Shown piece after piece: positions 21,825 to 33,215 of a DNA stretch of 43,776 nt. Source of the DNA: a virus. Every line of letters begins with the position of its first letter. Positions within the stretch are counted from its first letter, which is position 1. A model generated the notes under the pieces. It had not been told where the DNA came from, did not search any database, and saw only the letters and a list, made by a program, of their open reading frames with translations. The position numbers and the translations under genes were made by a program. Location of the stretch: positions 1 through 43,776 of the IMG/VR virus record IMGVR_UViG_3300010885_020890; one strand, 5' to 3'.

Positions 21825-22832
21825 TTATGGAACTTTTCCACAAACATTATCGCACTGTATTAATCGACCATTTTCATAGCTATCTTTAGTCCATGCACTT
21901 TCAATACTAGTAAACCATTTGATGCAAGTTTCCAATTCATATTCATGCAAACTATTATGTTTTACTAATGGTTTAATTTGTCGATTAACAAAACCATTAA
22001 AACCTTGGTCATATGTAAGCGGATTAAATGCCATATAACAACAAGGATAAACTAATCCATTTGCTGCAATGTAGATTGAGTTATTGTCTTTTGTAAAGCA
22101 ATTGTGTGTCATTCCTTCTAGATAAGGTTTATGATGATAGGTTTTATTTGGATCGATATGAAATTTAATTATATCGTTGATATCCGTAAATCCATTATAA
22201 TTACCCATAGTGCCAACTAGTTTTCCATTACGGTCAAATATTGGACCAGTATTGCGTCCATGATCTACAATTTCAAATTTTGTAAATCCTAATTTTTTAG
22301 AAAGTTCTTGTGCTTCTTCAATCTGATGTTTGTTATGATCAAATCGTATCATTTTCCAAATAGCAACACCACCAGCGTCCATGTAAGTTTTGGCGTTTTG
22401 AAGTATTCGATTAAAATTTGTATCTTGGCGATATATTGCGTGTGTATCTTCTAACCCATCTAAACAAAACTCAATAATCATATCTCGAAATTTGCCAAGT
22501 TCGTGCCAAAATTCACTATTTCTTGCACTACCATTTGTGCTTATTCGTATTCCTAATGGCTTGTAACTTGATTTAAAATATTCTAATATTGCAATAGATT
22601 CTAAATTAGCTGTAAAATCACCAAAGTTTCCATTAAGCAATATACCACGAACAAGTTGTTTTATAAATTGTGGAGAAAATGATTTTTTAACTAATTCAAG
22701 TGTCAAATTTGTTTCTTCATAACCTCTATTATATGGATAACCAAATAAATTTCTTGGACAAAGTGGACATCTTGCATTGCAGAATGAACTAAATTCCATA
22801 TGTAGATGTTGTACATTTTTTAATTCTATCAT
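21825..22832 (-). CDS. radical SAM protein with SPASM-like C-terminus
   Basis: A 335-aa protein starting with ATG at 22830-22832, overlapping the preceding radical SAM gene by 4 bp (ATGA). The cluster motif CNARCPLC (C18, C22, C25) sits close to the N-terminus, in the order SPASM-type enzymes use. The C-terminal region from about residue 245 has further cysteines: HNCFTKD, NGLVYPCCYMAF, LETCIKW and CDNVCGKVP, enough for an auxiliary iron-sulfur cluster. SPASM enzymes usually modify peptides or proteins. No precursor-peptide gene is evident next to it. It probably acts together with the overlapping upstream gene. Confidence 0.82.
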   Translation of the reverse strand: MIELKNVQHLHMEFSSFCNARCPLCPRNLFGYPYNRGYEETNLTLELVKKSFSPQFIKQLVRGILLNGNFGDFTANLESIAILEYFKSSYKPLGIRISTNGSARNSEFWHELGKFRDMIIEFCLDGLEDTHAIYRQDTNFNRILQNAKTYMDAGGVAIWKMIRFDHNKHQIEEAQELSKKLGFTKFEIVDHGRNTGPIFDRNGKLVGTMGNYNGFTDINDIIKFHIDPNKTYHHKPYLEGMTHNCFTKDNNSIYIAANGLVYPCCYMAFNPLTYDQGFNGFVNRQIKPLVKHNSLHEYELETCIKWFTSIESAWTKDSYENGRLIQCDNVCGKVP

Positions 22833-23971
22833 CTTTTTAATAATTCACTTATTTCAGGAAATATTTCTTCAAAACGTTCATCTCTATAACTATCATGCAA
22901 TTTAGTTTTTATAAAAAACTCATCTAGCAATGATTCATCATTATCAAAAACCCAATTTGAGATGTTTCTAATATCTTTGTTTTTGCTTGATAACAATTTA
23001 TCTACTACAAATTTTTTATTTTTTTCTGGAAAAATTGAACACTTATAGTATGCTGGACTGTTTATTCTACCCAACCATGGTTTAGGTAGATTGTTTTTAT
23101 AAATGTATTCAAAAAATTCAGGCAAATAATAAATTGTAAAAACACTCACTGTTGTGCTTATACTTAATTTTATATTTGGTTTTTTAGAGATAATATCTCT
23201 GTATTTGAATAAATTTTGTTTTACTTCACTCCATGAAGCGTTCTTTCTATTATACTCAAATCTTTTACCAATATCATCTATACTGACTTGGATGTCAACC
23301 AATCCAATATTTTCAAATAAACTCCAGTATTTTTCATCAGGGAATATTGTGCAATTAGTGCTATAATGTAATTTTATTTTGTTAGCATTTTTTGATTTGG
23401 TAAGAATCGATAACAATTCTAAATGTTTATCATTGTCATACAAGAATGGTTCACCACCGTGGATATGTATCTCTACAACATTTTCGCATAATTCTAAAAT
23501 ATTTTTCCATTCATGAGTAGATTCTAATAAATTATTTGATATTTTATCGCCATATACATCTTTATATTCTTTAATCCAACTGCTACTTGATTTTGGACTA
23601 CAAATACGGCATTTTAAATTACATATGTTGCTTAAAGGTAATGATAACAATAAAGTATCGGGATTAAATAAATCAACTGTTTCAAATTCTTTTTGCCATG
23701 TAGCATTATCTAATTTTCGCTTACTTGGATAGTTTACATCTTCTTCTTTCCAACATCGCTCACATGCTGCTGGTTTTTTTCCAGATAAAAAATCTTCTTT
23801 TAATTTTTTCAACGATGCACTATTTTTGTATTCTTCAATCGATACATTTTTTATATTGTGTTTTTCCCATCCGTCAACTTTTCCATTTAGTTTACAGCAC
23901 GGTTTTATATAGCCATCGTTGTCTAGATCAATTCCAACCCAAGGTTGATAGCAAAAATTTGGTAAATCCAT
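22829..23971 (-). CDS. radical SAM protein with N-terminal twitch-like Cys region
   Basis: A 380-aa protein. I choose the ATG at 23969-23971, since MDLPNFCYQPW begins right at the first expected Cys; an upstream TTG start would add 15 residues. N-terminal cysteines (C7, C25, C26, C70, C73, in KPCCKLNG and CERCWK) resemble a twitch-type cluster. The radical SAM motif CNLKCRIC follows (C117, C121, C124), then HIHGGEPFLY as the SAM-binding GGE motif. It is very Asn/Lys/Ile-rich. A TATAAATA box lies only 9 bp upstream. Function unknown; forms a two-gene unit with the next radical SAM gene. Confidence 0.8.
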   Translation of the reverse strand: MDLPNFCYQPWVGIDLDNDGYIKPCCKLNGKVDGWEKHNIKNVSIEEYKNSASLKKLKEDFLSGKKPAACERCWKEEDVNYPSKRKLDNATWQKEFETVDLFNPDTLLLSLPLSNICNLKCRICSPKSSSSWIKEYKDVYGDKISNNLLESTHEWKNILELCENVVEIHIHGGEPFLYDNDKHLELLSILTKSKNANKIKLHYSTNCTIFPDEKYWSLFENIGLVDIQVSIDDIGKRFEYNRKNASWSEVKQNLFKYRDIISKKPNIKLSISTTVSVFTIYYLPEFFEYIYKNNLPKPWLGRINSPAYYKCSIFPEKNKKFVVDKLLSSKNKDIRNISNWVFDNDESLLDEFFIKTKLHDSYRDERFEEIFPEISELLKR

Positions 23972-23979
23972 TAGAAAAA

Positions 23980-23987
23980 TATTTATA
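23980..23987 (-). promoter_or_regulatory. late-type box before the radical SAM pair
   Basis: An exact TATAAATA on the minus strand, but only 8 bp separate it from the ATG at 23971, leaving almost no leader and no Shine-Dalgarno. In AT-rich DNA this may be chance. Confidence 0.3.
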
Positions 23988-24002
23988 TCTATATTTTTTT
24001 CA

Positions 24003-24010
24003 TGTAAATA
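24003..24010 (+). promoter_or_regulatory. late-type box for the plus-strand gene at 24035
   Basis: TGTAAATA on the plus strand, one mismatch from TATAAATA, 24 bp before the ATG at 24035. It is divergent from the box at 23980-23987. Confidence 0.35.
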
Positions 24011-24034
24011 TACCAACCATAGAAGTTAAAAGGC

Positions 24035-24970: not shown

Positions 24971-26674
24971 ATGAAACTACCAGAAAATGCACAGGCACAA
25001 TGCGAACAGTTATTACGAGAATTTAGACGACCGATACCAGATGATGCGGTGTATAAAGACCGCCTTGTTGAAGAAATAGAAATCATACTGGGTTTACGAT
25101 TTACAGAATACTTCTTACAAGTCCGTGAAATATTAGACATGACGCTTGATTTACCACACATGACTCGTGGTAGTGCAGGCAGTAGTCTTGTATGTTGGGC
25201 ATTGGGAATCACAGATGTTGATCCTATAAAATGGGATATACCACTATCACGATTTTTAAATCCACACCGTGATGATCTGCCAGATATTGATATAGACTAT
25301 CCACATTGGGCACAGACTACGGTAATGGAACGTATATTCAAACGTTGGCCTGGCAAGAGTGCACGTATTAGTAACTATGTTACATTTAAAGAAAAAAGTG
25401 CCAAACGTGAAGCGGCAAGACGACTTGGTGCAAAAGGTAAATTACCTCGCAACTTCAAATACGATGATCTTGATATTGACATAGGGGAGGCTATTCGTAT
25501 TGAAAAGAAGTTACTTGGTAAGAAACGAGCCATCTCAAAACACTGCGGTGGTATACTTGTGTTCAAACATAATCTACCAAAAAGTTTAATAAATGCAGAT
25601 AATCAAATATTATTAGACAAACATGAAGTAGAAGACCTTGAACATCTAAAAGTTGACATACTTGCTAATCGTGGTTTAAGTCAATTGTATGAAATAGAAC
25701 CTAACATGAGTTTAGAAGACTATCCAGATTATGATGAAGCAACGATACAATTACTTTGCAATGGCGATGTGTTGGGTGTAACACAAGGTGAGTCACCAGC
25801 AATGCGGCGATTATTTCGTGCAATACAACCAAAATCACGCAGTGATTGTGTGTTTGCTACTGCGCTTATACGTCCTGTTGCTACCACTGGTCGTCAGAAA
25901 GCAAGTTTCTTTCATGATTGGACAGAAAAACAATTAGAAGATAGTATTGTTTATGAAGATGATGCTATCAAAAAAATAAGCAAACTTATTGGCTGTGATA
26001 TCTATGAAGCAGATATGTATCGCCGTGCATTTGCCAAAAAGAATGAAGAAAAAGTTTATGAATTTATGCATCGCATGGGAACGCATCCAAACAAAGTCGA
26101 AATTATAGACGAACTTTATCAACTTGGTAACTTTGGACTATGCCGTGCACATGCCGTAAATCTTGGGCGATTGATTTGGGCATTAGCATATCAAAAAGCG
26201 CATAATCCAAAACCATTTTGGGCAGCATATCTTAAACACTGTGAAGGCAGTTATCGTCGTTGGGTATATAAAAACGAAGCAAAACGTGCTGGTTGGGATT
26301 TACGTGAATTAGGATTTAATTATAGTTTATTAAATGACCCAATTTATGAATATCGCAAGTATGGATGGTGGGGCGATGCAGATTTTTTACCAGGTTTTTA
26401 TTGTAGTAATCAATATCTTGACCGTTTTGAATTTGCTGGTCTTGTTGCCAATGGTCGTGTATTCAAAGGAGAAGGCGGTAAGTACATTACCTTTCTTACC
26501 CTTGGTGTTGGTAACGGAAAATATATTGACCTACTGGTAAAAGGTCCAGTTGCATATCATGATTATGATGTAGTATGTGGTGTAGGCAAAGTCAAAACAA
26601 GCAACGGTAGTCAGTATATTGAATGTCAAAATGTGCGTACATTAAAATTAGAAAAGTTTAACTCTTCTGCTTAA
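24971..26674 (+). CDS. C-family (DnaE-type) DNA polymerase without PHP domain
   Basis: A 567-aa protein starting with ATG at 24971-24973. Motifs align in order with bacterial Pol III alpha: RGSAGSS (66-72), FLNPHRDDLPDIDIDY (95-110) with the metal-binding aspartates, HCGGILV (191-197), LKVDIL (226-231) with the third Asp, GVTQGES (269-275), EADMYRRAFAKK (346-357) and NFGLCRAHAV (387-396). Residues about 485-560 look like an OB-fold. The N-terminal PHP domain (about 270 aa in DnaE) is absent, so no intrinsic proofreading is expected, and the total is about half of DnaE. The likely role is phage DNA synthesis. No gp43-type B-family polymerase is in this window, though one could lie outside it. 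Confidence 0.88.
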   Translation: MKLPENAQAQCEQLLREFRRPIPDDAVYKDRLVEEIEIILGLRFTEYFLQVREILDMTLDLPHMTRGSAGSSLVCWALGITDVDPIKWDIPLSRFLNPHRDDLPDIDIDYPHWAQTTVMERIFKRWPGKSARISNYVTFKEKSAKREAARRLGAKGKLPRNFKYDDLDIDIGEAIRIEKKLLGKKRAISKHCGGILVFKHNLPKSLINADNQILLDKHEVEDLEHLKVDILANRGLSQLYEIEPNMSLEDYPDYDEATIQLLCNGDVLGVTQGESPAMRRLFRAIQPKSRSDCVFATALIRPVATTGRQKASFFHDWTEKQLEDSIVYEDDAIKKISKLIGCDIYEADMYRRAFAKKNEEKVYEFMHRMGTHPNKVEIIDELYQLGNFGLCRAHAVNLGRLIWALAYQKAHNPKPFWAAYLKHCEGSYRRWVYKNEAKRAGWDLRELGFNYSLLNDPIYEYRKYGWWGDADFLPGFYCSNQYLDRFEFAGLVANGRVFKGEGGKYITFLTLGVGNGKYIDLLVKGPVAYHDYDVVCGVGKVKTSNGSQYIECQNVRTLKLEKFNSSA

Positions 26675-28064
26675 GATTGTTTAGCATTTGTTTTAGTGCA
26701 CTGCTGTTTACATCAGCCACAATTTTACCTGGTTGATCTTCGGGAACTGCTTCTGTTGTTGGTTTAACATTGCTACCACCCTTAATGCTTGCAAAGATAC
26801 TGCTGCTTTGTTTCTTAAACTGCTGATATTCGGCGTCTTCTGCAAGGTCACGTATACGCAAACTATCAATATCAAACTCAAGTTCAATCTTTTGACCAAC
26901 ACCACTACTACTACGAGTTTTCATAAGTTGTAGTTGATACTTGCCATGTTCACGCATACTACGACTTGTAAAAATACCAAACAAGTTATCTGCAGTATTG
27001 ATCTTGGAAATACCACCACTGATATGACTGTGGTCAAACTCTACTTCTTCAACGGATGCACGGTTTAACTGTGATGCAGTTACAAGTAGAATATCCAATT
27101 CTTTTGCAAAGTTACGAATTTCTTCGGAGACATACTTGTCTTTAACAAATAGGTCACTTGGGCTAACCTTTGCACTTACTGGCATAAGAAGATCAAGATA
27201 ATCAATCATAACAAAGTCTACACGGCGACCACTACGGATTTGTAATTCTTTAATATAAGCACGAACATCGTTAATATTGCTTTGTGCTGGCATATATTTG
27301 ATTTGTAAACGACCGCTTTTTTTGCCAATCATCTTGACTTTGACTTCAATATCTTCAATACTCTTAAAGATATCACGGCTTGGTGTATTGGTAAGCATAC
27401 CATCAATACGCATGGCAGTAAGTTCTTCACTCAACTCAAGTGTAATATAAACGCCATTAAGACCAGCTAATATCCAATTACATGCAATATTTTGCATGAA
27501 TAGTGATTTACCACTACCCGAACCACCAGCAAAGATATTCAGTTCACCACGATTGAATCCACCAAATAGTTTCTTATCAAGTGTAGTCCATCCACTACTT
27601 GTTTGACCATTATTGTCTTTAATTTTGTTCAATCGTGCAATAGGGTCGATGAAGTAATCGGTTCCAAGGTCTTTGGTTAAACTAATCTGCACTGCATCTT
27701 TAATAATTTTTTCAACAGGATCAAAATCACCCTTTTCAAGCATATCAGCAGCTTTAAGAATTGCACGTTCAAGTTCTTTTTGCTTGGTAAATCCTTCAAA
27801 CTCTTCTAAGAACCATGCAGTATGGTCATCAGTCATACCAGGTATAAGTTGAAAAGTGTTATTAGTAGCAGCATTAATCTGTTCTACCAATGGCATAATG
27901 GTATGTTTGTCACAGTGTTCTTTTATAAATTTTGCAGCACTTTGTAAACTACGGTCAAAATTATTTGGGTTGAAAATGTTTTGGACTCGCACATAACTTT
28001 GCGGGTCACTTAACATCATTTCAATAAAAAGTTTTTGAACTGCTGCGTCATAGGTTTTTGCCAT
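26658..28064 (-). CDS. replicative DNA helicase (T4 gp41 / DnaB type)
   Basis: A 468-aa protein starting with ATG at 28062-28064. Residues 1-130 are the N-terminal helical collar; the RecA-like motor follows with Walker A AGGSGSGKS (179-187), YITLELSEE (205-213) and Walker B VDFVMIDYLDLL (281-292), then TASQLNR and a late KTRSSSG. The acidic and Gln-rich C-terminus may bind partners. It loads with the primase gene just upstream, giving the helicase-primase of the phage fork. A promoter with the -10 box 6 nt from the ATG suggests a leaderless mRNA. Its end overlaps the convergent polymerase gene by 17 bp. Confidence 0.92.
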   Translation of the reverse strand: MAKTYDAAVQKLFIEMMLSDPQSYVRVQNIFNPNNFDRSLQSAAKFIKEHCDKHTIMPLVEQINAATNNTFQLIPGMTDDHTAWFLEEFEGFTKQKELERAILKAADMLEKGDFDPVEKIIKDAVQISLTKDLGTDYFIDPIARLNKIKDNNGQTSSGWTTLDKKLFGGFNRGELNIFAGGSGSGKSLFMQNIACNWILAGLNGVYITLELSEELTAMRIDGMLTNTPSRDIFKSIEDIEVKVKMIGKKSGRLQIKYMPAQSNINDVRAYIKELQIRSGRRVDFVMIDYLDLLMPVSAKVSPSDLFVKDKYVSEEIRNFAKELDILLVTASQLNRASVEEVEFDHSHISGGISKINTADNLFGIFTSRSMREHGKYQLQLMKTRSSSGVGQKIELEFDIDSLRIRDLAEDAEYQQFKKQSSSIFASIKGGSNVKPTTEAVPEDQPGKIVADVNSSALKQMLNNLKQKS

Positions 28065-28070
28065 CTAGTA

Positions 28071-28099
28071 ATTATATCCGATTGTTATGCTTAAGTCAA
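28071..28099 (-). promoter_or_regulatory. sigma70-type promoter, leaderless, for the helicase
   Basis: TTGACT at 28094-28099, a 17-bp spacer, and an exact TATAAT at 28071-28076 on the minus strand; then 6 bp to the ATG at 28064. The TGA stop of the primase gene (28096-28098) lies inside the -35 box. Confidence 0.78.
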
Positions 28100-29094
28100 A
28101 ACCATTTTTTAGTCATAAGTTGAATTTTTAAACTATTTGTCTGCGCACTGTCTAATATACTGCGCATGGTAAAAAGTTGTCCATATTTGGCAACTGCATC
28201 TGCAGTATCTTTAATACCCGTTTCCCATTCAGGAAATGCTACACTCCAACCATATTTAAGTGCGGCATTTACCATTGCCACGCCAGCCTTATCACGGTCA
28301 GGCACAACAATGATATCACGGTCAAGTGTTTCAATAACTTGTGCTTGCTCATCATTTACTTCATTACTGCAAATTGCAAGTGCATTTATTGAAAGAGCAT
28401 CAAGTAATCCTTCAACAACAATACAAAACTTTGCATCACGATGTTGGCGGTCATAACCCCAAATCATATTACTTGGATAGTTAGAAAAGTATTTTACTTT
28501 CTTTTTGCCATCTTCAAACAATCGGCCGCTAAAACCCATGGGTTTGTTTTTCCAAGTAAACGGAACTAACACACGATTGCGCAATGACGCATCATCTGTC
28601 CAATGAAACTCATGCAACTTGTCACCAAAACCACGAGCATCAAGATAATGAATAGCGTTTTCCAAACTGTTGTAATCCGCTTCATTGATATATCCATCAT
28701 TTAACCAACTTGTAATAGGACGACCAGGACATGGGTCACGTGGTTCATAGGTGGGCAATTCACGTGTTTCAACTACAACTGGTTCTGCGGTCTCTTGACT
28801 GATAGCAAATAGCGCAAGACGACCTACAAGGTCTTCTCCCATGCCAATCCAAATCATCCAACGCCGCATTTTATAACTTAAACGACGACCTGGTTGCCAA
28901 CTACAAGTATAATGACAATTAAAACAATGATAATTAATACCACCTTCTGGTGTTTGGTGAACACCACCACGACCACGAGTATCGGCTTCATGTCCTAAAT
29001 GCTGACAGCATGGTGCATTAAAACTAATCCATCCACTTGGAGTAGTTTTCTTCTTCCATGGCAAATGCGCCAGTATTTGGTTAGTAATTTCCAT
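28096..29094 (-). CDS. DNA primase, gp61/DnaG type with TOPRIM domain
   Basis: A 332-aa protein starting with ATG at 29092-29094. The N-terminal zinc ribbon shows APCCQHLGH (28-35 region) and CFNC (57-60). The TOPRIM catalytic core has VVEGLLDALS (226-235) with the conserved Glu228 and VVPDRDKAG (263-271) with the D-x-D pair. Length matches T4 gp61 (342 aa). It primes lagging-strand synthesis with the helicase encoded downstream. It has its own promoter and likely a leaderless mRNA. Confidence 0.9.
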   Translation of the reverse strand: MEITNQILAHLPWKKKTTPSGWISFNAPCCQHLGHEADTRGRGGVHQTPEGGINYHCFNCHYTCSWQPGRRLSYKMRRWMIWIGMGEDLVGRLALFAISQETAEPVVVETRELPTYEPRDPCPGRPITSWLNDGYINEADYNSLENAIHYLDARGFGDKLHEFHWTDDASLRNRVLVPFTWKNKPMGFSGRLFEDGKKKVKYFSNYPSNMIWGYDRQHRDAKFCIVVEGLLDALSINALAICSNEVNDEQAQVIETLDRDIIVVPDRDKAGVAMVNAALKYGWSVAFPEWETGIKDTADAVAKYGQLFTMRSILDSAQTNSLKIQLMTKKWF

Positions 29095-29129: not shown

Positions 29130-29914
29130 GGACGATAATAAATATAATTCATCTGTCCACTGATTTGGCTAACCTTAAATCTTACAGCACGATATTTGCC
29201 TTGGAAGTTAAAGTAATTTGTTCCAGTAACATTAGCACAGTTGGCATAACTTACTGTGGTATAGCTATTGGCATCCACTACACTTTTAGCGTCCAAACTT
29301 ACTTGCAACTGAATGTTGCCTGTAAAAGCATTTGCATTATATTGAACGGTTTGATAAACAGCACTGCCACGAACATAATTGGCTGTCAAGAAACTGCTGC
29401 TATAAGCAACATTTACATAGTTTGTGTCGCCATCATTACTGTATGTAAAATTGTTAGCAAGATAACTTGGAGTAAACTGTGGATAAACACCATCGTTTAT
29501 TCTGGCCTGACCTTGTGCTTGATAATTGTCATCACTATAAACAATTTCTTGTTCACCTTCACCATTGGTAACAACAATGCTGTAATTATATAAACCTGCA
29601 TTTATATTATCAAGTGTGCTACCTGCGATGAGACAAGTTGCTACACCATCACGTGTATAAACAAGATCAAGATTGCGTGAAAACACTAATTCTTTTGTGG
29701 TAGAATCAATTAAGTTAAATAAAACTGTGCTTTGTAAAAGGCTCGCAGGTTTTTGATCATTATTCTTGATAACGAACTTAAATCTATTATCTACACCTTT
29801 ATATATTTGTAATGGCTTGGCGTAAAACAACTGATTCTCCCTTGGTAATGCAAGGTCGCTGTTCTTTACAACTGTTATAATTTGTGGATATAAATAACCT
29901 GAAATTTGCTGCAA
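29126..29914 (-). CDS. beta-rich baseplate or fibre protein
   Basis: A 262-aa protein. The frame has no ATG near its start; the TTG at 29912-29914 is supported by AAGGG about 8 nt upstream and a late-type box at 29933-29940. The N-terminal about 40-130 residues (KGVDNRFKFVIKNNDQKPA, later GLYNYSIVVTNGEGE) look like the beta-sandwich that starts many baseplate upper proteins. The rest is Asn/Tyr/Thr-rich beta structure, ending SGQMNYIYYRP. A virion role is likely. It is a late-type gene placed among replication genes. Confidence 0.6.
   Translation of the reverse strand: MQQISGYLYPQIITVVKNSDLALPRENQLFYAKPLQIYKGVDNRFKFVIKNNDQKPASLLQSTVLFNLIDSTTKELVFSRNLDLVYTRDGVATCLIAGSTLDNINAGLYNYSIVVTNGEGEQEIVYSDDNYQAQGQARINDGVYPQFTPSYLANNFTYSNDGDTNYVNVAYSSSFLTANYVRGSAVYQTVQYNANAFTGNIQLQVSLDAKSVVDANSYTTVSYANCANVTGTNYFNFQGKYRAVRFKVSQISGQMNYIYYRP
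29889..29896 (+). promoter_or_regulatory. late-type box for the plus-strand gene at 29941
   Basis: An exact TATAAATA on the plus strand, inside the first codons of the opposite-strand gene. It would give a leader of about 38 nt with no clear Shine-Dalgarno. Confidence 0.4.
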
Positions 29915-29932
29915 CTAATGGACCCTTTTTAA

Positions 29933-29940
29933 TATTTATT
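29933..29940 (-). promoter_or_regulatory. late-type promoter box for the TTG-start structural gene
   Basis: AATAAATA on the minus strand, one mismatch from TATAAATA, with AAGGG and the TTG start at 29914 at suitable distances. It supports the TTG start choice. Confidence 0.45.
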
Positions 29941-30315
29941 ATGAGTTTTTCACTGGAACAAATGCTTGAACAATATCCCTTCTTAAGTTACATAAAATAC
30001 CCTACTGCGGACTTTATTGGAATTATACAAAATTTTGATGGTGACATCGTTTCTATGTATGCCTTCAATAAATTAAAGACCGAAGAAGATAAACGTGGGT
30101 TTCTTGAAGCGGCAGAAATATGGTGGTGGGAAAGTAATCGTTTAATACCAATCAATATATTTTTAAAACATGGTTGGGACAAATATCGTTATAGTACAGT
30201 AACACTTACTACAAAAGATATAAGAGAGCAGTGTGGTCATATTGTAAGCATTGCTAAACTTGCAGAACGTAGAACAAAACGCAGAGTTGTTCAGTTAGTT
30301 AAACGACTCGGTTAA
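29941..30315 (+). CDS. hypothetical protein
   Basis: A 124-aa protein. I choose the ATG at 29941-29943, beginning MSFSLEQMLEQYPFL. It contains EIWWWESNRLIPINIFLKHGWDKY near residues 60-85, a Trp-rich helix-loop, and a basic C-terminus (AERRTKRRVVQLVKRLG), so it may bind nucleic acid. A small helical protein of unknown role. It is convergent with the mini-DnaE gene and overlaps its end by 21 bp. Confidence 0.55.
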   Translation: MSFSLEQMLEQYPFLSYIKYPTADFIGIIQNFDGDIVSMYAFNKLKTEEDKRGFLEAAEIWWWESNRLIPINIFLKHGWDKYRYSTVTLTTKDIREQCGHIVSIAKLAERRTKRRVVQLVKRLG

Positions 30316-30855
30316 CAAATTCATATGAACCATTACTAGCTGTGCATAAGACACAGCGTGTGCACGTTTAAAATAATAACCTTCACTTGGTTTAATCCAG
30401 ATTTCATCAGCTATTTCTCGCCATCGCTTTCCGATAAGGTAACGTTTGGATGGACGAATGATTGCCAATACCATAGCCAACTGATCCATTGTAGTAGGAA
30501 GATGTTGTTGTAAGACATCAAAATGATTTGATAAATGAATAAGTTTGGCAACGAAATCACGCTCCTTTAATAGTTCCCACTGTGGTTCACGTTCACAGAG
30601 TTCGTCAAGATGCTCGTTACTGCGAACTGAATTATAAACGTGAACATTTAGTAGGTCTAATTTCATATAACCTAATTCTTCTGCGGTATCATAATCGATG
30701 TTACTCAATCCAGTAAGTGGGTTTTGGGGTACAGGATTGACATAGACTCCAGTGTTATGCTTGACAACAGCACCGTCACGGCGTATAGACGCAGGTATAT
30801 GCTTGATAAGTTTCAAGATATCCTCACGGTTTCCAAAGTCTATGTCAATATCCAT
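30295..30855 (-). CDS. minimal DnaE-like protein (second C-family polymerase relative)
   Basis: A 186-aa protein starting with ATG at 30853-30855, adjacent to the stop of the gene before. It begins MDIDIDFGNR, matching the DIDIDF palm motif, then HNTGVYVNPVP (33-43, the HxGG/V region), LGYMKLDLL (61-69; K65 and D67 match the Lys-x-Asp pair of DnaE), VLQQHLPTTMDQL (114-126), LAIIRPS and YYFKRAHAVSYAQLV (160-174, the fingers motif). It lacks the RGSAGS region, the RRxxxKK insert, PHP and OB domains. Two palm Asp motifs survive, so activity is possible but doubtful without the nucleotide-binding loop. A regulatory or structural role is an alternative. Confidence 0.72.
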   Translation of the reverse strand: MDIDIDFGNREDILKLIKHIPASIRRDGAVVKHNTGVYVNPVPQNPLTGLSNIDYDTAEELGYMKLDLLNVHVYNSVRSNEHLDELCEREPQWELLKERDFVAKLIHLSNHFDVLQQHLPTTMDQLAMVLAIIRPSKRYLIGKRWREIADEIWIKPSEGYYFKRAHAVSYAQLVMVHMNLLTESFN

Positions 30856-31107
30856 TTATGCCCATCTCATTAGGAAAAGGTTACGTTCTTCATCATTGAC
30901 GAACCCTAGCATCATACCGTATTGTGACCACCTTGTCAAGCATGAATCGCACCATGCCTTAATATCTTCTTCGTTCTTTACCCAGAATGATGGGTCAGCG
31001 ATAATAAGAAAACTTTTGTTTATTATCAAATCAAGTGCATAGACATTATCGGATAAGTCACGAATATCTTTTAATGATGCATTGCCAACTACAAACCGCC
31101 CTGACAT
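30856..31107 (-). CDS. hypothetical protein
   Basis: An 83-aa protein starting with ATG at 31105-31107, overlapping the stop of the zinc-finger gene (TAATG) and ending directly before the mini-DnaE ATG. It has a beta-alpha pattern with VYALDLIINKSFLIIADPSFW and a Cys-Trp-rich helix AWCDSCLTRWSQYG. The frame does not contain the missing N-terminal DnaE motifs. Three genes (zinc finger, this, mini-DnaE) form one coupled unit. Confidence 0.58.
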   Translation of the reverse strand: MSGRFVVGNASLKDIRDLSDNVYALDLIINKSFLIIADPSFWVKNEEDIKAWCDSCLTRWSQYGMMLGFVNDEERNLFLMRWA

Positions 31108-31841
31108 TAGAAACCTGCTTTTTCTAATATTTGTCTGGTAATTTCTGTTTCTGCGGCATGTATCTTTAACTTACGTTCCCAAAATGGCGGATCAATCCAT
31201 GGCAGTGCAAGAGTAACTTGTTCTTCGTTTAGTTCGCCAAGTTTTTCCATGCCGTTATCACAGCAATAGATTACCCATGGACTAATACGACCATGCACAA
31301 TATGATTTAACAAACGACTGGTGCTTATGTTCTTAAAGTAATCACTGAACTCTACAGTGCTGTCTTTGGTTTCTTCTGCCCAACGTTGCATAGTTTCAAT
31401 ACTACGTTCTAATGCTTCATCATACTTTTCTGTTCTAACATATTCCCAAAGATATGACTCATAAATCTTATCACGTGTCCAACTATCAAGTTTGTATTTG
31501 CTTGTTAGAACATAATCTATGAATTTATTAACATTAATTGCATCAATAGCATGACAATGACGACCAAACTTAACAAAACCTTGATACAATGAACTGCTAC
31601 AAAAATCTTCATAGGTTTTAAGTTTAGCACTGCCTTGTGTTAATTCATAGAACCGCATCCAAGCAATATACCCAATGCGCACACCTTTTTCATTCTTTTG
31701 ATTTTCACGGCGTTTTGGTTCGCATTGGTGAACAACAAGGCTACTTTCACGTGTAAAAGCAAGTCCACAATGTTTGCAGACATTTTCACCAGGTTTTACA
31801 TCCTTTGCGGCTTCTAACGCAATCTTACGTAATTCGTTCAT
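31107..31841 (-). CDS. zinc-finger protein, first gene of the mini-DnaE operon
   Basis: A 244-aa protein starting with ATG at 31839-31841. Residues 22-39 (VCKHCGLAFTRESSLVVHQC) form a C2HC-type finger like those in DNA-binding proteins. The remainder is helical, with repeated Trp/Tyr-rich segments (YESYLWEYVRTEKYDEAL, then PPFWERKLKIH). No catalytic motif is recognised. A TATAAT with an extended TG motif sits 6 nt before the ATG. Since it is the head of the operon with the mini-DnaE gene, a DNA replication or repair role is inferred only. Confidence 0.62.
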   Translation of the reverse strand: MNELRKIALEAAKDVKPGENVCKHCGLAFTRESSLVVHQCEPKRRENQKNEKGVRIGYIAWMRFYELTQGSAKLKTYEDFCSSSLYQGFVKFGRHCHAIDAINVNKFIDYVLTSKYKLDSWTRDKIYESYLWEYVRTEKYDEALERSIETMQRWAEETKDSTVEFSDYFKNISTSRLLNHIVHGRISPWVIYCCDNGMEKLGELNEEQVTLALPWIDPPFWERKLKIHAAETEITRQILEKAGF

Positions 31842-31847
31842 CTTGTA

Positions 31848-31856
31848 ATTATAACA
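31848..31856 (-). promoter_or_regulatory. extended -10 promoter, leaderless
   Basis: TGT directly precedes an exact TATAAT (31848-31853) on the minus strand, so this is an extended -10 element; the -35 position (TACCGC) is poor. Six bp separate it from the ATG at 31841. Confidence 0.65.
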
Positions 31857-32379
31857 GTTTTTGTGCTGCAGCGGTAATATAATATTTCCACTTTGTCAAA
31901 TCAAATCCACGAATTACTTCTTCATGAAGCGGAAGTTCACTTGGGTCATATGGCGGTGTAACTGTACTAATTAGTTGATTACAATAATCAGGGTAACTTC
32001 CGAAGTAAATTTTAGGTATGGTAATAAAACTCGTTACTTTGTGTATGAATATATGATGAGGATGACCATACTCACCTTTCTCATTGTGTGTTAGTATAAT
32101 ATCTGCGCCATCGCATACAGCACGTATCCACTGTTCTGCATCACCACTATTAAATCCAAGTTCGTTTTTCTTTACACTTTCCCATTTATCAGTCAAGCCA
32201 GCAAACATGGTAGGAATGCCACGGCGTTTCCAAAATTTGGAAATCTCTGCTCCACGAGGATCACTGCGTCGATAGGTAAGATAGCATATTGTCCAATCCC
32301 AATCACGGTGTTCCATGATAAATTGATAAGCAAAGATTGCACAATCATCTGGGTGAGCAACTAAACAAACTGCTTTCAT
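31849..32379 (-). CDS. PIG-L/LmbE-family deacetylase
   Basis: A 176-aa protein starting with ATG at 32377-32379, overlapping the preceding gene by 4 bp (ATGA). The metal-site motif HPDD is at residues 9-12 and the third ligand lies in GHPHH (105-109; H109). Together these match the PIG-L zinc hydrolases, which remove N-acetyl groups from GlcNAc-type sugars. At 176 aa it is shorter than most family members (about 220-250). It follows a glycosyltransferase-like gene, so a role in modifying a phage or host glycan is plausible. Substrate unknown. Confidence 0.85.
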   Translation of the reverse strand: MKAVCLVAHPDDCAIFAYQFIMEHRDWDWTICYLTYRRSDPRGAEISKFWKRRGIPTMFAGLTDKWESVKKNELGFNSGDAEQWIRAVCDGADIILTHNEKGEYGHPHHIFIHKVTSFITIPKIYFGSYPDYCNQLISTVTPPYDPSELPLHEEVIRGFDLTKWKYYITAAAQKLL

Positions 32380-33215
32380 ATGCGATCCTTTACAAATTCA
32401 TCCCAAGCAATGCGCTGTTCATTGTTAAGAAGTTTATAAGCACGAGGATGAACACTTGCAGTAAGTGCTTTATCATCATTTTGCAATTTAACAAACCAGT
32501 TATAAAATGTATCTACTTCCCAATCCGCAAGATTATAAACACCAATTTTTTGTTTGCCACTATAAAGATCATCAAACAAATTGTTTTTACTAATCCAAGC
32601 ACTATAACATAAAAACTCTGTAATACCATGTGTGTCAGGATTTACTTTGCTTGGAAATTGGCAATTGCTTTCAAACCATTCTACAAAGTTTGGTTCACTC
32701 ATTACCATATCACGCATGGCGTGTGTATAAGCAAGAAATGGAACACCGCCAGGACTAATCCAGTTGAAATCTGTAATGCTATATTTTTGTTTTAAAAATT
32801 GTAAACCACTTTGCCAATGTGGACTATTGCATGACCAACTTTCACAATGTGCACGGTTATACTGGTCAAATACTTCACTAATTTCAAATGGACGAATGAA
32901 CCATGTCTTGGCGTCAAGTATCATGCACCAATTACTTTCTGCATGTGCAGTGCCAAGTATCTTGCAAACTTGTTGTGTATACCAACCTGACAAATGTGAC
33001 GATGGATAATACCCAAACTTGCTACGATGAAATATGCGGACTTTATAGCCAAGTTCACCATACCAACTGATATCTATATCATCATGAGTTAACGTTTCAT
33101 CATTTAATATAACATATATGTTTTGTATTTCATCACCAAAGTAATAAGACATACTGTATGCTTGATGTTCAAGCAAATATAACTCATCACAATAAACAAC
33201 AGTTAGCAAGTCCAT
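32376..33215 (-). CDS. glycosyltransferase-like protein
   Basis: A 279-aa protein starting with ATG at 33213-33215. The start MDLLTVVYCDELYLLEHQ, the GWYTQQVCKILG block (about 77-88) and WCMILDAKTWFIRPFEI (about 96-112) follow the layout of DUF6492-type GT-A glycosyltransferases; DAK at about 101 would stand where the metal-binding D-x-D usually lies, so the second Asp is replaced by Lys and the enzyme may be atypical. It overlaps the PIG-L gene by 4 bp, implying joint action on a sugar. Family call moderate. Confidence 0.62.
   Translation of the reverse strand: MDLLTVVYCDELYLLEHQAYSMSYYFGDEIQNIYVILNDETLTHDDIDISWYGELGYKVRIFHRSKFGYYPSSHLSGWYTQQVCKILGTAHAESNWCMILDAKTWFIRPFEISEVFDQYNRAHCESWSCNSPHWQSGLQFLKQKYSITDFNWISPGGVPFLAYTHAMRDMVMSEPNFVEWFESNCQFPSKVNPDTHGITEFLCYSAWISKNNLFDDLYSGKQKIGVYNLADWEVDTFYNWFVKLQNDDKALTASVHPRAYKLLNNEQRIAWDEFVKDRI

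Follow-up and report, generated by a model that had tools for sequence, protein, structure and literature searches.

The DnaE-like protein and its gene

The window considered here is a 43,776-nucleotide stretch of viral DNA (positions 1 to 43,776 of IMG/VR virus record IMGVR_UViG_3300010885_020890), which encodes, within a replication gene cluster, a 186-residue protein related to the bacterial replicative polymerase DnaE. Its gene lies at 30295..30855 on the minus strand and belongs to the phage protein family phrog_11778. We refer to this protein as the C-half, because large T4-like jumbo phages probably have a minimal DNA polymerase III alpha of the DnaE type (C family) that is made in two pieces, with this protein as its C-terminal subunit. 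The reading frame is intact, with an ATG start, a TAA stop and no internal stops. The protein begins with MDIDIDF and also contains YMKLDLL and YYFKRAHAVSYA; inspection of its sequence found no GxGRGS/RGSAGS loop and no PHP or OB part. An initial annotation of the same DNA, which gave no strand, had described just such an intact DnaE-like open reading frame (ORF) starting at the palm motif and missing the loop and both domains, and this description holds.

The start codon directly abuts the stop of a preceding 83-residue ORF, and in several relatives too an in-frame stop stands immediately ahead of MDIDIDF, so the abrupt beginning is not a mis-annotated start. Comparison with ten relatives gave ratios of nonsynonymous to synonymous substitution rates (dN/dS) of 0.08-0.18, indicating strong purifying selection.

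Relationship of the C-half to DnaE

The kinship with DnaE is visible only through family profiles and fold comparison. A Pfam search returned zero matches, and plain phmmer against the PDB gave chance matches only; the protein matches PHROG 11778 (“DNA polymerase”) from end to end at E=7e-59. A profile built from 19 homologues matches Mycobacterium tuberculosis (Mtb) DnaE1 in colinear pieces (E=0.0014), of which only three are convincing: residues 415-425 (DIDIDF), 567-664 (from KxD to RP) and 771-788 (FNKSHAAGY). By this mapping, the C-half has no thumb and lacks most of the fingers. The AlphaFold model has a mean confidence (predicted local distance difference test, pLDDT) of 93.3; DnaE accounts for 12 of its 12 top PDB matches, the best six at a probability of 0.99-1.00, and nothing else exceeds 0.1.

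Ten residues (D2, D4, D6, K65, D67, R134, P135, K137, K163 and H166) are invariant across 60 C-half homologues, and also in a more diverse set of 19; the motifs are retained in SCTP-2 and RAS14. E. coli DnaE has D401, D403 and D555 as its catalytic acids, with D405 an extra aspartate that distinguishes DnaE from PolC (PMC3919608). By motif correspondence, D2/D4/D6 and D67 of the C-half equal D401/D403/D405 and D555, so that both the catalytic triad of the C family and the aspartate specific to its DnaE type have invariant equivalents. Two other hallmarks of the family are missing from the 186-residue chain: the GxGRGS/AGS loop, which sits in a separate protein rather than in the same polypeptide, and the joining of PHP, palm, thumb and fingers within a single chain. 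The correspondence rests on the profile mapping and the 60-homologue alignment, since a local alignment with a 567-residue DnaE encoded in the same window pairs DIDIDF with the wrong DxDID stretch, probably owing to the missing thumb, and was set aside.

The initial annotation had proposed conservation of D2/D4/D6 and D67 as a check, and had allowed that the similarity might be accidental, with acids that vary among homologues and no DnaE palm fold. The acids are invariant and the predicted fold matches DnaE: the likeness is not accidental and the C-half is a genuine DnaE palm.

The nucleotide loop in a second gene

The missing loop is found in another phage gene, phrog_11127, which encodes a protein of about 171 residues (here the N-half) carrying a GxGRGSS nucleotide-phosphate loop. 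In G001, a 338-kb near-relative of the window, a protein matches this family at 5.4e-39 and is encoded about 227 kb from the C-half. The N-half is also present in Atu_ph07, Phosso, GAP32, PA5oct, Slicko01 and SCTP-2, and in the further records G002, G003, G009, G010, G012, G013, G015, G016, G018 and G022. Among the relatives of at least 110 kb that were checked and carry the C-half, all have the N-half except G014, a partial 200-kb sequence; contigs of 46-90 kb with the C-half often lack it, as expected of fragments. Across the phage collection, C-half homologues occur in 63 records (E<=1) and N-half homologues in 64 (E<=0.01), largely the same phages; at the default threshold the C-half family had no match in any of 14 cellular genomes searched as controls. 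On one contig (G021, 117,666 bases) the N-half matches twice, at 22502-23005 and 94662-95165, with equal scores on opposite strands, through an inverted duplication or else an error of assembly.

The break between the two genes is fixed. All 89 recovered N-half ORFs stop 35-37 residues past GxGRGS, at the “RFLN” segment of DnaE, and C-half homologues begin at or near DIDIDF; on Mtb DnaE1, the N-half maps to residues 335-407 and the C-half from 415 onward. None of the 89 N-half ORFs is fused to a C-half, and no one-piece minimal form was found among the loci collected for this search. Rejoining by an intein or by trans-splicing was considered and is unlikely: 0 of the 89 N-half ORFs run past the break, the C-halves begin where they do, and intein remnants are seen at neither end. 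Distance matrices of the two halves from 15 genomes correlate at r=0.86, a value reached in 0 of 10,000 permutations; this correlation shows joint inheritance and is not by itself proof of binding.

These observations bear on two ways in which the C-half might be something less than an enzyme subunit. One is that it is the decaying remnant of a former full-length DnaE: it is far shorter than cellular DnaE, and the N-half was termed “truncated” by earlier authors (PMC5259590). We give this practically no weight; identical boundaries in dozens of divergent phages, strong purifying selection and conserved catalytic residues speak against decay, and the selection and conservation data refute it. 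The other is that the C-half is a catalytically dead pseudo-polymerase whose fold is kept for a structural or regulatory role. Taken alone it does lack both the nucleotide-phosphate loop and the thumb; against this, none of the catalytic acids, nor the lysine next to them, varies among highly diverged homologues, and all are kept in SCTP-2 and RAS14, where the catalytic sites of pseudo-enzymes usually drift; the loop, moreover, is present in trans in a co-inherited gene. A dead enzyme is thus improbable. The initial annotation had read the lost loop as suggesting a new role, among others that of a pseudo-polymerase or a tiny nucleotidyltransferase; with nearly all the large relatives checked encoding the loop in a second gene, and the break fixed, that step finds no support.

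Neighboring genes

In the window the C-half shares a replication gene cluster with a DnaB-like replicative helicase (26658..28064, minus strand) and a DNA primase (28096..29094, minus strand), and it is likewise beside primase and helicase in GAP32, Phosso and PA5oct. A convergent ORF of the family phrog_11637, function unknown (29884..30315, plus strand), overlaps the 3′ end of the C-half gene by 21 bases; GAP32, Phosso, Atu_ph07 and PA5oct have a conserved counterpart of it (30-44% identity), likewise tail-to-tail with the C-half and immediately downstream. The N-half lies 1-2 kb from a gp44-type clamp loader in GAP32, SCTP-2 and G001. Judged from gene order, the context of both halves fits a replisome. 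A DnaQ-type exonuclease was considered as an obligatory proofreading partner and rejected, an RNase_T match being present in only 5 of 13 records.

This context weighs on a third alternative, that the two halves form a nucleotidyltransferase built on a DnaE palm that does not copy DNA and is instead end-adding, nucleotide-modifying or signal-making. DnaE palms have the pol-beta nucleotidyltransferase fold (PMC7824862), and with the thumb and most of the fingers missing a template-primer may be poorly held. The placement of the genes in clusters with clamp loader, primase and helicase argues the other way, as does the preservation of the DnaE motif FNKSHAxxYA in the C-half family, as FKKSHAxxYA. 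We consider a non-copying enzyme unlikely, though the likeliest of the alternatives weighed here.

Upstream of the C-half, on the same strand, are the 83-residue ORF (30856..31107), for which no family was found, and then a gene for a 244-residue protein of the family phrog_11058 with an N-terminal C2H2-like zinc finger (31107..31841). The 83-residue ORF, also present in G001, is in the reading frame of the C-half, with a single TAA between them. The initial annotation had placed the C-half in a coupled operon behind the zinc-finger protein. The junctions, TAATG between the zinc-finger gene and the 83-residue ORF and TAAATG between that ORF and the C-half, make coupling plausible; the zinc-finger gene is not directly adjacent, the 83-residue ORF intervening.

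Members of phrog_11058 were found in 61 phage records, which are practically those with the split polymerase. In most of them the gene is near the C-half; RAS14 and XacN1 have it close to the N-half instead, at a distance of about 3.3 kb, with the C-half about 10 kb or more away. The zinc-finger protein may be a third subunit, or its gene may simply belong to the core of the lineage.

Two further gene pairs were noted on the minus strand of the window. Directly upstream of the zinc-finger gene (31849-33215) are a PIG-L type deacetylase and a protein with DUF6492, which may work as a pair in sugar modification, and at 21825-24016 are two adjoining radical SAM proteins (matches to phrog_14086 and phrog_21308).

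Other DNA polymerases of the lineage

The 567-residue DnaE of the window (24971..26674, plus strand) has no PHP domain; it has a complete palm of its own (RGSAGS, LPDIDIDY, LKVDIL and LCRAHA) as well as fingers. Being encoded 4 kb away in the same replication region, and being, like the C-half, a DnaE homologue (BLASTP E=4e-5), it might be thought the partner to which the C-half binds as an accessory, pseudo-polymerase or regulatory subunit, as the initial annotation had suggested for one of its options. It has a full palm already; it occurs in only four of the 14 records carrying the C-half (G000, G001, G004 and G007), all close relatives; and a 37%-identical homologue is encoded by the uncultured phage LR756508 (484 kb), a phage that has no C-half. 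Because of this complete palm, narrow distribution and independent occurrence, it is not the usual partner of the C-half, and such a partnership seems very improbable. Motifs and distribution instead mark the 567-residue protein as a separate polymerase, neither the missing half nor a general partner. The C-half in turn is a separate conserved gene and not debris of the larger enzyme; here the initial annotation, which had held that it was no fragment beside that polymerase, was right.

Most of these phage genomes also have a family-B polymerase, found in G001, G002, G009, G010, Atu_ph07, Phosso, PA5oct, Slicko01 and SCTP-2. From gene content, three DNA polymerases thus seem to coexist in the lineage of the window: the family-B enzyme (in G001), the split polymerase III and the one-piece PHP-less DnaE.

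A probable two-piece polymerase

That the C-half is one subunit of a two-piece polymerase III alpha is the reading we favor, given what the analysis established: the homology, the split point, the linkage to the other half, the conserved catalytic residues, the purifying selection and the predicted fold. From these we infer that the halves bind each other, that together they have polymerase activity, and what biological role they may play. From the N-half would come the first part of the palm, with the GxGRGSS triphosphate loop; the C-half, as the Mg2+- and DNA-binding subunit, would contribute the metal-binding palm aspartates and a shortened fingers part; and the two would join non-covalently, rebuilding a single active site. 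The assembled enzyme, of about 360 residues and without thumb, most of the fingers, PHP, OB or clamp-binding parts, would probably be slow and distributive (of low processivity), working beside the family-B replicase of the phage. For such a distributive enzyme, gap filling, primer extension or repair would be likelier than bulk replication, which the family-B polymerase can do.

Several points tell against this reading. The N-half is not in the 43.8-kb window, which is a fragment, and its presence in this phage is deduced from G001. By profile, the N-half alone is present in G011 (288 kb) and the C-half alone in G014; both may be fragments. The structural match of the N-half to DnaE is weak (probability 0.28-0.72), while sequence profiles do support it. 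Co-occurrence and tree agreement of the halves could stem from shared phage ancestry alone, and with the thumb and most of the fingers lost the assembly may be unable to polymerize DNA at all.

A bolder version, which we offer as a speculation with rather poor odds, is that N-half, C-half and phrog_11058 form a three-part, thumbless polymerase III core, the smallest natural DnaE-type polymerase, to which a defined part of replication would fall while the family-B enzyme does the rest and, in the lineage of the window, the 567-residue DnaE works in parallel.

If the halves do form a working enzyme, it would show how little a bacterial replicative polymerase needs: about 360 residues, shared between two proteins, rather than more than 1,000 in one, with neither thumb nor PHP domain. 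This would bear on how a pol-beta-like nucleotidyltransferase gave rise to the family-C polymerases, and on what makes these phages retain family-B and family-C enzymes together. The genes are small enough for direct testing by expression, for which the constant position of the break and the zinc-finger companion offer concrete leads.

Comparison with known systems

The split arrangement itself is already published: Iyer et al. (2021; PMC7824862) recognized, from sequence, a split minimal DNA polymerase III alpha in the jumbo phages of their “group 2.2.” A search of the open literature turned up no biochemical work on the split enzyme, and in phage records most members of phrog_11778 and phrog_11127 are labelled “hypothetical protein” or “membrane protein.” The 186-residue protein of the window is an instance of the published C-terminal unit, a stand-alone protein starting from the DIDIDF palm strand with its Mg ligands conserved. 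The corresponding N-terminal unit, which binds nucleoside triphosphate, is encoded by a distant gene in G001 (227 kb apart) and in other large genomes, the window itself being a fragment without it. By their lengths and motifs, neither unit has PHP or other polymerase III domains, and a family-B polymerase is found in the same phage, again as described for the published system. What is new here is the invariant split site, the zinc-finger gene with the same phage distribution, and the third, 567-residue polymerase in the lineage.

With bacterial DnaE of the C family the C-half shares the motifs DIDIDF, KxD, RP and F-K-K/R-x-H-A-x-x-Y, the third aspartate of the DnaE type (D6, equivalent to E. 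coli D405) and the predicted fold; the split system differs in being encoded by two genes and in lacking PHP, thumb, most of the fingers, HhH, OB and the tau- and clamp-binding parts. Compared with the split polymerase as published (PMC7824862), the lineage of the window additionally carries the one-piece PHP-less DnaE, and its C-half opens at the very first catalytic aspartate (M-D2); the GAP32 protein, as annotated, is a little longer at its N-terminus.
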